Source: Thiohalospira halophila DSM 15071 (GTDB lineage: Bacteria; Pseudomonadota; Gammaproteobacteria; Thiohalospirales; Thiohalospiraceae). From it: DNA of 64,000 nt. Numbering within the stretch: position 1 is the first letter of the stretch; each line of letters begins with the position of its first letter. The translations under genes were made by a program, and so were the position numbers. Where the stretch lies: positions 1-64,000 of the forward strand of contig NZ_FOMJ01000002.1 in NCBI RefSeq assembly GCF_900112605.1, read 5' to 3'. A model generated the notes under the pieces. It did no database searches. It worked only from the letters and a program-made list of their open reading frames with translations, and was not told the origin of the DNA. Shown piece after piece: positions 14,004 to 17,163 of the stretch.

Positions 14004-14750
14004 ATGCTGGTACTGGTCACTGACTTCGGCCTGGCTGGACCCTACACCGGGCAGATGGAGGTCGTCCTCCATCAGGAGGCGCCGGGCATCCCGCAAGTGG
14101 ATCTTCTCGCCGACGCTCCGGTCTTTGACCCCCGCTCGACCTCCTACCTACTGGCGGCCTACGCCGACTCTTTCCCGCTGGACAGCGTCTTTCTCGTGGT
14201 CGTGGACCCCGGTGTCGGTACTCACCGGCCGGCAGTCGTCCTGAGAGCGGACGGCCGCTGGTTTGTCGGACCCGACAACGGTGTGCTGGTCATGGTCGCG
14301 CGGCGAGCCCGAACCGTGCACTGGTGGCGGATCGATTGGCGACCGCCGGGCCTCTCGGCGAGTTTCCACGGTCGGGATCTCTTCGCGCCGGTTGCCGCGG
14401 CGCTCACCCGGGGTGATATGCGGGGTCTGGTGGATATCCCGAAACCCGCGATGGCGGGGGCGGATTGGGACGAGGAACTGAAGGCCGTCGTCTATATTGA
14501 CCACTACGGCAACGCCATCACCGGTATGCGAGCCAGAGCGATCCCGGACGGGGTAGCGCTCCGGGCGGGGGGAACGCGGGTTGAGACGGCCAGGGTGTTC
14601 GCCGATGTCCCGGCCGGGCGACCCCTCTGGTACGAGAACAGTAATGGGCTGGCCGAGATCGCCGTCAACCAGGGCAGGGCCGATGAGGCCCTGGGGCTCG
14701 CGCCGGGGAGTGCCGTGACACCAATTGTAGGGGACAATACCCTGTCCTAG
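14004..14750 (+). CDS. SAM hydroxide adenosyltransferase (DUF62 family, SAM hydrolase)
   Basis: The DUF62/SAM_adeno_trans family splits S-adenosylmethionine with water into adenosine and methionine. At least one member studied is selective for the non-physiological sulfonium epimer of SAM. 248 residues from ATG 14004. Seen here: N-terminal LVTDFG, VVVDPGVGT, then VGPDNGVL and SFHGRDLFAPVAA, which form the substrate pocket in the family, and YIDHYGNAITG in the C-terminal barrel. The frame is open upstream inside rplQ, but this ATG gives the correct family N-terminus. The 19-base spacing after rplQ and lack of a promoter suggest it is expressed with the ribosomal operon, an unusual place for this gene. 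The family call is firm; the exact substrate is inferred. Confidence 0.9.
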   Translation: MLVLVTDFGLAGPYTGQMEVVLHQEAPGIPQVDLLADAPVFDPRSTSYLLAAYADSFPLDSVFLVVVDPGVGTHRPAVVLRADGRWFVGPDNGVLVMVARRARTVHWWRIDWRPPGLSASFHGRDLFAPVAAALTRGDMRGLVDIPKPAMAGADWDEELKAVVYIDHYGNAITGMRARAIPDGVALRAGGTRVETARVFADVPAGRPLWYENSNGLAEIAVNQGRADEALGLAPGSAVTPIVGDNTLS

Positions 14751-14781: not shown

Positions 14782-14812
14782 TGGGTGTTCAAGGGGAGAG
14801 AAGGGGAGCAAC

Positions 14813-16039
14813 ATGCAAGGGAACACGCCCCACGGTCGCGCCAAGGGCGCAGACCTGGCCCTGGCTGAGCGGATCCTCGCCGGCATGGGGAATCCTGCGC
14901 TGGCCGTGATCCTCTGGGACGGTAGCCGTGTCGGGCCGTCGGATACGGTGGCCGATGTCGCGGTCGCCGATCGGCGGGCGTTGTGGGCCATTGCCCTGAA
15001 TGCGGATCTTCACTTCGGCGACCTCTATGCGGCCGGTCGGGTGCGCATCGATGGTGACCTGCAGACCTTCCTGGAGACGGGGTATCGCGCCATGGACGGG
15101 CAGCCGACCCCCTGGCCGTTGCGCTTCCTCCACCGCTGGCAGAATCGGCCGCGACGGAACTCCCTGAACGGCTCCCGGGAGAACATCCACCATCACTATG
15201 ACCTGGGCAATGACTTCTACCGGCTCTGGCTGGATCAGGAGGTCATGCAGTACACCTGCGCCTACTATCCCAGCGAATCGGCCAGCCTGGAGGAGGCACA
15301 GATAGCCAAGCTCCACCATGTCTGCCGCAAGCTGCGGCTCAAGCCGGGAGATACGGTAGTCGAGGCGGGTTGCGGCTGGGGTGGCCTGGCTCGCTTCATG
15401 GCCAAGCATTATGGCGTGAAGGTACGCGCCTTTAATGTCTCGCAGGAGCAGTTGCGCTTCGCCCGGGAGGAGGCCGAACGGCAGGGGCTCTCGGATCGGG
15501 TGGAGTACGTCGAGGACGACTACCGGAACATTGAGGGGACCTACGACGTCTTCGTCTCGGTGGGTATGCTCGAGCATGTCGGCACGGAGCAATATCCGGA
15601 ACTGGGGGCAGTGATCGATCGGGTGCTTGCCCCCCACGGCCGGGGCCTCATCCACACCATCGGGCGGAATCGGCCCCAGCTCATGAATCCGTGGATCGAA
15701 AAGCGTATCTTTCCCGGGGCCTACCCCCCCACCCTGCGGGAGATGGCGGCCATCTTCGAGCCGTATGCCTTCTCGATCCAGGACGTGGAAAACATCCGGC
15801 TCCACTACGCGCGGACCCTCCAGCACTGGCTGGAGCGGTTCGAGGCCAACGTGGAGACGGTCCGGCAGATGTTCGACGAGCACTTCGTGCGGACCTGGCG
15901 GCTCTACCTCGCCGGCTCCATTGCCAGCTTCACCACGGGGGAGCTGCAGCTCTTCCAGACCGTCTTTACACGGCCGGACTACAATGAGCTCCCCTGGAGC
16001 CGCGCCTATCTCTACACCGCCGGGGAGGAAGGGGCATGA
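14813..16039 (+). CDS. Cyclopropane-fatty-acyl-phospholipid synthase family methyltransferase
   Basis: CFA-type enzymes transfer a methyl(ene) group from SAM to double bonds of membrane phospholipid acyl chains. 408 residues, close to E. coli Cfa (382). The N-terminal lipid-binding region (about 1-110) is followed by ENIHHHYDLGNDFYRLWLD, the SAM motif VEAGCGWGGLARF near residue 185, and VGMLEHVG. A GGGGAGCAAC ribosome binding site precedes ATG 14813. Its stop overlaps the next start (ATGA) with a GGR-like flavoprotein, so the two are translationally coupled and probably act on the same lipid. It may be a plain CFA synthase, or a methyltransferase making a methyl-branched or furan precursor. 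The family call is firm; the product is not. Confidence 0.88.
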   Translation: MQGNTPHGRAKGADLALAERILAGMGNPALAVILWDGSRVGPSDTVADVAVADRRALWAIALNADLHFGDLYAAGRVRIDGDLQTFLETGYRAMDGQPTPWPLRFLHRWQNRPRRNSLNGSRENIHHHYDLGNDFYRLWLDQEVMQYTCAYYPSESASLEEAQIAKLHHVCRKLRLKPGDTVVEAGCGWGGLARFMAKHYGVKVRAFNVSQEQLRFAREEAERQGLSDRVEYVEDDYRNIEGTYDVFVSVGMLEHVGTEQYPELGAVIDRVLAPHGRGLIHTIGRNRPQLMNPWIEKRIFPGAYPPTLREMAAIFEPYAFSIQDVENIRLHYARTLQHWLERFEANVETVRQMFDEHFVRTWRLYLAGSIASFTTGELQLFQTVFTRPDYNELPWSRAYLYTAGEEGA

Positions 16040-17163
16040 GCGAACGCAGCGACGTCCTCATCGTCGGCGGCGGTCCCGGCGGTTCCACCCTGGGTCGGGC
16101 GCTCGCTCGGCAGGGCCTGGATGTGACCATCGTCGACAAGCAGACCTTCCCCCGGGACAAGGTCTGCGCCGGCTGGGTGACCCCCGCGGTCATGGAGTCC
16201 CTGGACCTGGACCCGAACGAATACGCCCGGGATGCCGTCCTGCAGCCCATCCACGCCTTTCGCACCGGCATGCTCGGTCAGCGCACCGTGGTCTCTCGCT
16301 ACCCGGAACCGGCGAGTTACGGGATCCGGCGCTACGAGTTCGATGCCTGGCTGCTGGAACGGGCCATCAACGACGGTGTCCGTACCGCGCAGGGCCAGCC
16401 TCTGAAAGAGCTGCGCCGGGAAGACGGTGAGTGGGTGCTCAATGACCATCTGCGCACACCGCTGCTCATCGGTGCCGGCGGCCACTTCTGTCCCGTGGCG
16501 CGCCACCTCGGGGCGGCGAAGCCCGGCTCCTCGGAGACCGCGGTCCACGCCCAGGAGATCGAGTTCGAGATGACGCCGGAGCAGGCGGCTGCCTGTCCGG
16601 TGGAGGCCGACGTGCCGGAGCTCTACTTCCTCCGCGACCTCTCCGGCTACGGCTGGATCGTGCGCAAGGGGGACTGGCTGAATATCGGCCTCGGTCGCGA
16701 GGGGGGCCAGAAGCTCGGTGAGCAGGTAAGCGCCTTCGCCGAGGAGCTCAAGGCCATGGGGCGGCTCCACATCGACCCACCGAGCAAGTTCAAGGGCCAC
16801 GCCTACCTGCTCCACGGCCACAGCCCGCGGCCGCCGGTTCACGACGGGGCCCTGCTCATCGGTGACGCAGCCGGCCTGGCCTATCCGCAGAGCGGCGAGG
16901 GGATCCGGCCGGCAGTGGAGTCCGCGCTCATGGCGGCGGAGGTCATTGGTGCCGCGGGTGGCGATTACAGTGCCGACCGCCTGGCCGCCTTCGGCGACCG
17001 GCTACAGCGCCGCTTCGGCAAGGGGTCGGCGGCGGGTGAACCCGGGCCGGTGAAACAGGCCCTGGCGCGGCCGCTCATGGCCTCGAGCTGGTTCGCCCGC
17101 CACGTCATCCTCGACCGTTGGTTCCTCCACCGCCACCAGGCCCCCTTGGCCCCGGCGGCCTGA
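16036..17163 (+). CDS. Geranylgeranyl-reductase-like FAD-dependent oxidoreductase
   Basis: A p-hydroxybenzoate-hydroxylase-fold flavoprotein. 375 residues with an N-terminal dinucleotide fold [19 protein letters not shown] (G11/G13/G16 pattern), a conserved segment FPRDKVCAGWVTP as in geranylgeranyl reductases, and the second FAD motif LLIGDAAGLAYPQSGEGIRPAVESA near residue 275. GGR-type enzymes reduce isoprenoid double bonds; related flavoproteins desaturate or modify acyl lipids. The 4-base overlap with the CFA-like gene points to an acyl-lipid substrate rather than chlorophyll or archaeal lipid. No chlorophyll or carotenoid genes are nearby. Function is inferred from context. Confidence 0.8.
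   Translation: MSERSDVLIVGGGPGGSTLGRALARQGLDVTIVDKQTFPRDKVCAGWVTPAVMESLDLDPNEYARDAVLQPIHAFRTGMLGQRTVVSRYPEPASYGIRRYEFDAWLLERAINDGVRTAQGQPLKELRREDGEWVLNDHLRTPLLIGAGGHFCPVARHLGAAKPGSSETAVHAQEIEFEMTPEQAAACPVEADVPELYFLRDLSGYGWIVRKGDWLNIGLGREGGQKLGEQVSAFAEELKAMGRLHIDPPSKFKGHAYLLHGHSPRPPVHDGALLIGDAAGLAYPQSGEGIRPAVESALMAAEVIGAAGGDYSADRLAAFGDRLQRRFGKGSAAGEPGPVKQALARPLMASSWFARHVILDRWFLHRHQAPLAPAA

Follow-up and report, generated by a model that had tools for sequence, protein, structure and literature searches.

We analyzed a 64,000-nucleotide stretch of the Thiohalospira halophila DSM 15071 genome (contig NZ_FOMJ01000002.1, positions 1 to 64,000; hereafter, the window), focusing on two adjacent forward-strand genes that match the published tmpBA operon. 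The tmpB-type gene (positions 14813-16039; an open reading frame (ORF) matching PF02353 CMAS) encodes a 408-residue S-adenosylmethionine (SAM)-dependent methyltransferase of the Cfa/CMAS family. The tmpA-type gene (16036-17163; an ORF matching TIGR02032) encodes a 375-residue flavoprotein of the geranylgeranyl reductase (GGR) superfamily, predicted to be a methylene (C=C) reductase. The start codon of tmpA and the stop codon of tmpB share the tetranucleotide ATGA (16036-16039). As read from the sequence, a Shine-Dalgarno-like GGAGG for tmpA lies within the 3' end of tmpB (16024-16028), and a Shine-Dalgarno-like AAGGGGAG precedes tmpB (14801-14808), both on the forward strand. The two ORFs and their overlap, reported in a preliminary description of the window, were confirmed from the ORFs and the sequence, and the ATGA overlap suggests that the genes are translationally coupled. 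Genomes, loci, and genera of this analysis are labeled G, L, and g, respectively, the window genome being G000.

Profile searches placed TmpB in the PF02353 CMAS family (280 bits) and under the NCBIfam Cfa cut-offs (PRK11705, 287.6 vs 400; CPFASynBruc, 328.7 vs 600). The protein is 43% identical to Escherichia coli Cfa across 271 residues. Its residues C149, E254, H281, I283, and Y332 align with C139, E239, H266, I268, and Y317 of E. coli Cfa, which we take to be the bicarbonate site of that enzyme, and each of the five is conserved in 141-145 of the 145 aligned rows. In the methyltransferase tree described below, the window protein falls inside the TmpB clade (100/99). TmpB is predicted to produce 10-methylene acyl chains on phospholipid.

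The tmpBA operon was described by Blitzblau et al. (2021; PMC7791843) in T. halophila, Marinobacter hydrocarbonoclasticus, and Desulfobacteraceae (Desulfobacter postgatei and Desulfobacula toluolica). The methyltransferase gene leads and is followed by the gene for a flavoprotein resembling archaeal GGRs. In E. coli, four of the five tmpBA operons made 10-methylenepalmitate (that of T. halophila included, 70.4% conversion), and 10-methylene products of TmpB proteins were also seen in cfa-deleted E. coli. Methylene chains are degraded by acid (PMC7791843). The same paper reports 10-methylpalmitate from Desulfobacteraceae and some gammaproteobacteria, and describes bfa, the actinobacterial counterpart, and tmp as independently evolved. 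No further paper on tmpA or tmpB in this sense was found in the open-licence PMC literature.

TmpA matches PF01494 and TIGR02032, and not PF01565. It scores 163.3 bits against TIGR02032, the geranylgeranyl reductase family (cut-off 158.8), and three relatives that were scanned (L093, L122, and L129) lie slightly below this cut-off, at 142.5-157.4 bits. In its AlphaFold2 model (mean predicted local distance difference test score 95.1), TmpA is modelled with a GGR fold. The closest structure is 3oz2 (Z 36.8, root-mean-square deviation 2.7 across 351 residues; Foldseek rank 1), followed by FixC of 7koe (Z 35.8) and the archaeal GGR 3atq (Z 33.4); flavin halogenases score about 31, and flavin monooxygenases and halogenases together span Z values of about 26-31. 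Because FixC and the flavin halogenases score close to GGRs, the fold by itself is no proof of the TmpA reaction.

The GGR motifs described in PMC10821996 comprise GxGxxG, a conserved cysteine, RxxFD, PxxYxWxFP, and LxGD. TmpA keeps most of them, with GxGxxG, C44 at the cysteine position, RxxFD (R99-D103), Y205, W207, and LxGD. Conservation was counted in alignment A1, which holds 37 of the 39 available rows (L051 and L071 excluded), and C44, R99, F102, D103, Y205, W207, G276, and D277 are invariant in all 37. Only A1 was used for this purpose, because the seed patterns of the named-contig scan described below include the CAGW motif; L071 and L104, whose matched stretches are interrupted by stops, are in none of the protein alignments. 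The modelled fold and the motifs fit delivery of a hydride to an unactivated C=C bond, and an exocyclic methylene would chemically resemble the isoprenoid double bonds reduced by GGRs.

A class-wide draw of 369 genomes from the window's class yielded TmpA in 36 (E<=1e-40). Within the window's family, TmpA occurs in the window genome and in all three genomes of genus g3, and is absent from all eight of genus g2. Among the 38 loci found by TmpA alone (35 from the class and 3 from the family), 35 have a CFA-type (cyclopropane fatty acid synthase-type) gene adjoining TmpA; in one exception, L053, the 994 upstream bases hold no CFA-type gene, and the TmpB of that genome is on another contig. A scan of named contigs by TmpA confirmed at least 470 stretches, of which 80 loci were kept. 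A CFA-type gene is present in 79 of them (divergent in L095), and the remaining locus, L082, starts 172 bases into a contig. The titles include Marinobacter, Steroidobacter, Gallionellaceae, Geobacter, Desulfobacula, Acidobacteria, Planctomycetes, and Rokubacteria, although most of these records are metagenome-assembled genomes (MAGs) and their titles may be wrong. Isolates named Marinobacter shengliensis, M. denitrificans, and Steroidobacter agaridevorans also carry tmpBA. The pairing, proposed from this one locus in the preliminary description, is kept in relatives, and the adjacency of TmpB and TmpA is not due to chance.

The spacing of the two genes was compared in 110 of the 118 loci (L053, L063, L069, L071, L082, L084, L095, and L100 excluded). 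The methyltransferase gene precedes tmpA on the same strand in 101 of them, with stop-to-start distances of -28 to +106 nucleotides; the genes overlap in 47 of the 101, by exactly 4 nucleotides in 16, and individual values may be off, starts having been picked by nearness to the aligned start. The reverse order, with the GGR-type reductase gene first, is found in L122-L128, and the CFA-type gene lies about 600 nucleotides downstream in L149 and about 800 nucleotides upstream in L147. Besides TmpA, TmpB, and frames antisense to TmpB, no cluster that could represent a third conserved gene or an electron donor recurs beyond 5 of the 116 regions compared (115 loci and the window), although the ORF picker, which takes the longest frame in GC-rich DNA, recovered TmpA in 92 and TmpB in 89 of the 116, certainly missed real neighbours, and could not see a ferredoxin shorter than 80 residues. 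Because no such third cluster was found, TmpB and TmpA look like a self-contained pair. A search of plasmids for TmpA gave no match at 1e-15.

These data bear on the possibility that TmpB simply makes cyclopropanes and that TmpA, its neighbour, serves a different purpose, such as saturation of isoprenoid quinones, the two being joined by operon history only. Consistent with this are the identity of TmpB to E. coli Cfa, the annotation that family membership alone would give (Cfa and GGR), and the fact that quinones are substrates of GGR relatives such as MenJ. We nevertheless regard it as very unlikely, given the published 10-methylene products, the adjacency of the two genes in records of many phyla without any other common gene, and the replacement of TmpA by proteins of an unrelated reductase type, BfaA.

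This replacement was observed among the same 369 genomes. Genomes were taken as TmpB-positive at 300 bits or more (48 of the 56 listed at 1e-75; the next score is 274), and 14 of the 48 lack TmpA at 1e-40, G025, whose TmpA is just below the threshold, being counted as TmpA-positive. A flavoprotein of the PF01565 family (FAD_binding_4, where FAD is flavin adenine dinucleotide) adjoins TmpB in G216 and G047, and stands tail-to-tail with it in G274. The corresponding query matches 19 of the 369 genomes, 14 of them with at least 36% identity. Over its length it shares 43% identity with a Tsukamurella FAD oxidoreductase whose gene immediately precedes one for a class I SAM methyltransferase, which is the bfaAB arrangement of actinobacteria; "BfaA-type" is used here on the basis of this homologue and its arrangement. 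The best BLASTP match between TmpA and a Tsukamurella BfaA-type protein has 16.9 bits (E 1.3).

In the first tally, 34 of the 48 TmpB-positive genomes had TmpA, 10 had a BfaA-type protein, none had both, and 4 had neither. Relaxed thresholds added an unlinked TmpA in G248, giving 35, 10, 0, and 3, respectively, and a renewed search of 36 genomes at 1e-10, 35 of them TmpA-positive, found no BfaA-type protein. Five weak FAD_binding_4 matches with 28-30% identity (G039, G146, G184, G190, and G258) were not called BfaA-type, and including them still leaves zero overlap with the TmpA-positive genomes; likewise, GGR matches of 59 bits in G320, 44 bits in G294, and 51 bits in G039, where the CAGW motif is missing, were considered too weak to be scored as TmpA. 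Two genera hold both kinds. In g14, G022 has TmpA and G174 has a BfaA-type protein (37%), and in g157, G165 and G275 have tmpBA, and G370 has a BfaA-type protein with its own methyltransferase. The membership of the window pair in the tmpBA type, its anatomy, its conservation, and the exchange of TmpA with BfaA-type proteins are direct results of this comparison. BfaA is a demonstrated methylene reductase dependent on reduced nicotinamide adenine dinucleotide phosphate (NADPH) (PMC7791843; PMC5660069), and its exchange with TmpA suggests that TmpA catalyzes the same reaction.

Three of the 48 TmpB-positive genomes (G039, G184, and G294) have a TmpB-type gene and neither TmpA nor a clear BfaA-type gene at the thresholds used; these organisms may stop at the methylene or cyclopropane stage, or may use a third reductase. 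The same three genomes would agree with a scheme in which the pathway naturally ends at the methylene chain, TmpA serving to protect or regulate TmpB. This scheme appears extremely improbable: the FAD-site motifs and the GGR cysteine are conserved in TmpA, 10-methylpalmitate is reported from the groups named above, and two of the three exceptions have weak FAD_binding_4 matches.

The history of the exchange was followed on two methyltransferase trees, a careful maximum-likelihood tree of 78 hand-picked rows and a quick tree of 140 rows (145 rows minus L056, L071, L084, L100, and L117). The type of reductase partner switches at least 9 times on the former and 10 times on the latter; when adjacent partners only are counted, there are 5 switches on either tree. 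BfaA-linked L181 sits among TmpA-linked rows (100/95), and L177 (G174) is the sister of L043 (G022) (100/97). The methyltransferases of the reverse-order GGR loci (titles Rokubacteriota, Binatia, and Tectomicrobia), together with genus g123, are sister to the actinobacterial BfaB-type (100/99). Loci L122-L128 thus combine a bfaAB-like gene order and a methyltransferase on the BfaB side of the tree with a GGR partner. Four GGR-paired rows, those of Desulfobacula and a Desulfobacteraceae MAG included, cluster with BfaA-paired L219 near E. coli Cfa (98/93; careful tree). In the Desulfobacula locus, titled Candidatus Desulfobacula maris (L129:4187-5912), the methyltransferase next to TmpA even exceeds the cut-off of the NCBIfam model for E. 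coli Cfa (443.7 vs 400 bits), and automatic annotation would therefore name it Cfa.

As judged from these sequence comparisons, at least three methyltransferase lineages would have a GGR-type reductase as neighbour; BfaA-type reductases would accompany the same three and a fourth of their own. No earlier statement of such lineage-spanning exchange was found in the literature covered here. We consider it likely that TmpA is a GGR-family enzyme shifted from isoprenoids to a bacterial fatty acyl chain, and that GGR-type and BfaA-type reductases repeatedly replaced each other beside at least three Cfa-type lineages.

The preliminary description had drawn a parallel with furan fatty acid synthesis. 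In a furan-type reading, the operon would make a methylated and then desaturated or oxidized chain, and the flavoprotein would be an O2-dependent desaturase or monooxygenase like UfaD. The TmpA fold is common to flavin monooxygenases and halogenases, and no reductase activity of TmpA was seen in E. coli (PMC7791843), both of which would suit such a role; we still judge it highly improbable. A comparison of TmpA with the UfaD-like protein encoded in this genome gave no meaningful match (best 21.9 bits, E 0.035), and the sole DUF1365 (UfaO) gene found in the genome belongs to a separate ufaD-ufaO-CFA2 operon on another contig, C1. TmpA pairs are also found in records titled Desulfobacula, Desulfobacterales, and Geobacter, in which an O2-dependent step is unlikely. 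The exchange of the partner with BfaA, a reductase of demonstrated activity, also makes desaturation less likely. Of the preliminary description, the conserved pairing was supported, and the proposal of a chain methylated and then reduced, unlike a simple cyclopropane, was largely right; the furan parallel was not supported.

The C1 run occupies about positions 588180-593380 of G000:C1 (L077:4181-9377) and consists of overlapping or abutting ufaD-like (PF01593), ufaO-like (DUF1365), CFA-family (CFA2), MFS_2, and DUF3833 genes. The genome's one DUF1365 match lies with the PF01593 gene at C1:~588.2-591.5 kb, and neither PF01593 nor DUF1365 matched TmpA or the two upstream genes scanned. This run, distinct from the window pair, is a likely operon for furan fatty acids or related ones, and the organism may make both kinds of lipid. 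The window genome, a 2.69-Mb assembly, has two RuBisCO large-subunit matches, consistent with an autotroph.

Taken together, the pair is very probably a tmpBA operon in which TmpB makes a 10-methylene chain and TmpA reduces it to a 10-methyl-branched saturated chain. Several observations weigh against this assignment. None of the published tmpBA operons yielded 10-methylpalmitate in E. coli, and TmpA was inactive in E. coli and yeast (PMC7791843). PxxYxWxFP is only partly conserved, residue 210, the final P, being R in 28 and P in 6 of the 37 rows of A1. Orphan TmpA-like genes without a methyltransferase in the fetched stretch occur at L063 and L069. In 30 of the 35 genomes with TmpA, it adjoins the TmpB-type gene, whereas the two are apart in G131, G245, G341, G248, and G163 (5/35); in G131, G245, and G341, TmpA adjoins another CFA-type gene. 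BfaA-type genes adjoin TmpB in only 3 of 10 genomes, and in G336 the neighbour is a different CFA-type gene. Finally, the genomes of the exclusivity count are related to each other, and the no-overlap probability for the first tally, 1.5e-7 were they independent, is indicative only. The orphans are L063:5083-6195 (G148) and L069:1389-2255 (G334), and the L063 protein has GDAADIA for GDAAGLA.

For the silent TmpA, Blitzblau et al. suggested that the protein may be oxygen-sensitive or without its electron carrier (PMC7791843). Poor activity in E. coli was also noted for the GGRs of Sulfolobus acidocaldarius and Methanosarcina acetivorans, and the activity of the latter was increased by a co-expressed ferredoxin-like protein (PMC9385802). 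By analogy, the requirement for a ferredoxin-like protein may explain the lack of TmpA activity in E. coli.

For the window pair, we infer the TmpA reaction, its electron donor, and the product in this organism as follows. The cation formed at TmpB would lose a proton to give a chain with an exocyclic 10-methylene C=C bond, with no closure of a cyclopropane. TmpA, as a GGR-fold FAD enzyme, would then draw electrons from a donor, possibly a low-potential one such as ferredoxin, and reduce the 1,1-disubstituted C=C bond to a 10-methyl-branched saturated chain, mainly 10-methylpalmitate.

The operon type and the TmpB activity were already known; the present comparison adds good indirect evidence for the reductase half. 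The exchange of TmpA and BfaA-type proteins, seen in genomes of many families and on the methyltransferase tree, points to the reaction to assay, and TmpA, if shown to work, would be an example of a GGR whose substrate chain is not isoprenoid. If the proposed replacements are correct, mix-and-match assembly would supplant the view of bfa and tmp as two independently evolved operons. Many "cfa" genes beside such a reductase would then be methylene synthases, including those of sulfate reducers bearing 10-methylpalmitate, which is a marker lipid of certain sulfate reducers, and the annotation of "cyclopropane synthases" adjoining such reductases would need to change.

Upstream of the pair, the window has the gene order rplQ, SAM hydroxide adenosyltransferase, tmpB, tmpA. 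The adenosyltransferase gene ((R)-SAM hydrolase family, PF01887/PF20257; positions 14007-14750 on the forward strand, start provisional) lies outside the core module. The four-gene order is kept in all three genomes of the sister genus g3 (L084 is one of the g3 contigs over again), and tblastn found no match to the adenosyltransferase at TmpA loci other than those of the window and g3 genomes. A link of this neighbour to the SAM supply of the methyltransferase is possible.

Comparison with the published tmpBA operons (PMC7791843) shows the same two genes with the methyltransferase first, a Cfa-family TmpB with a conserved bicarbonate site, and a GGR-like TmpA; this comparison with the published description revealed no difference from the window pair. 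The bfaAB operons, e.g., those of Mycobacterium chlorophenolicum (Machida et al. 2017; PMC5660069) and Thermomonospora curvata, share the two-gene, two-step logic, in which a methylene synthase and a flavoprotein reductase yield a 10-methyl chain. They differ in the reductase, BfaA-type proteins being FAD_binding_4 proteins without sequence relation to TmpA, which lacks PF01565; in gene order, the reductase gene being first in actinobacteria and the methyltransferase gene in the window; and in substrate, BfaB preferring C16-C18 and TmpB C14-C16 chains (PMC7791843). The UfaM/UfaD/UfaO pathway of Rhodobacter sphaeroides (Lemke et al. 2020; PMC7380195) also combines a SAM-dependent acyl methyltransferase with a flavoprotein acting on phospholipid acyl chains; however, UfaD resembles phytoene dehydrogenases and is followed by UfaO (DUF1365), whereas TmpA belongs to another family. 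The archaeal GGRs of Thermoplasma acidophilum (3OZ2) and S. acidocaldarius (3ATQ) are like TmpA in fold, cysteine position, RxxFD, Y-x-W, and LxGD, and hydrogenate unactivated C=C bonds in membrane lipids. Their substrate is isoprenoid, whereas that of TmpA would be a methylene fatty acyl chain, and the final P of PxxYxWxFP is absent from most TmpA rows.

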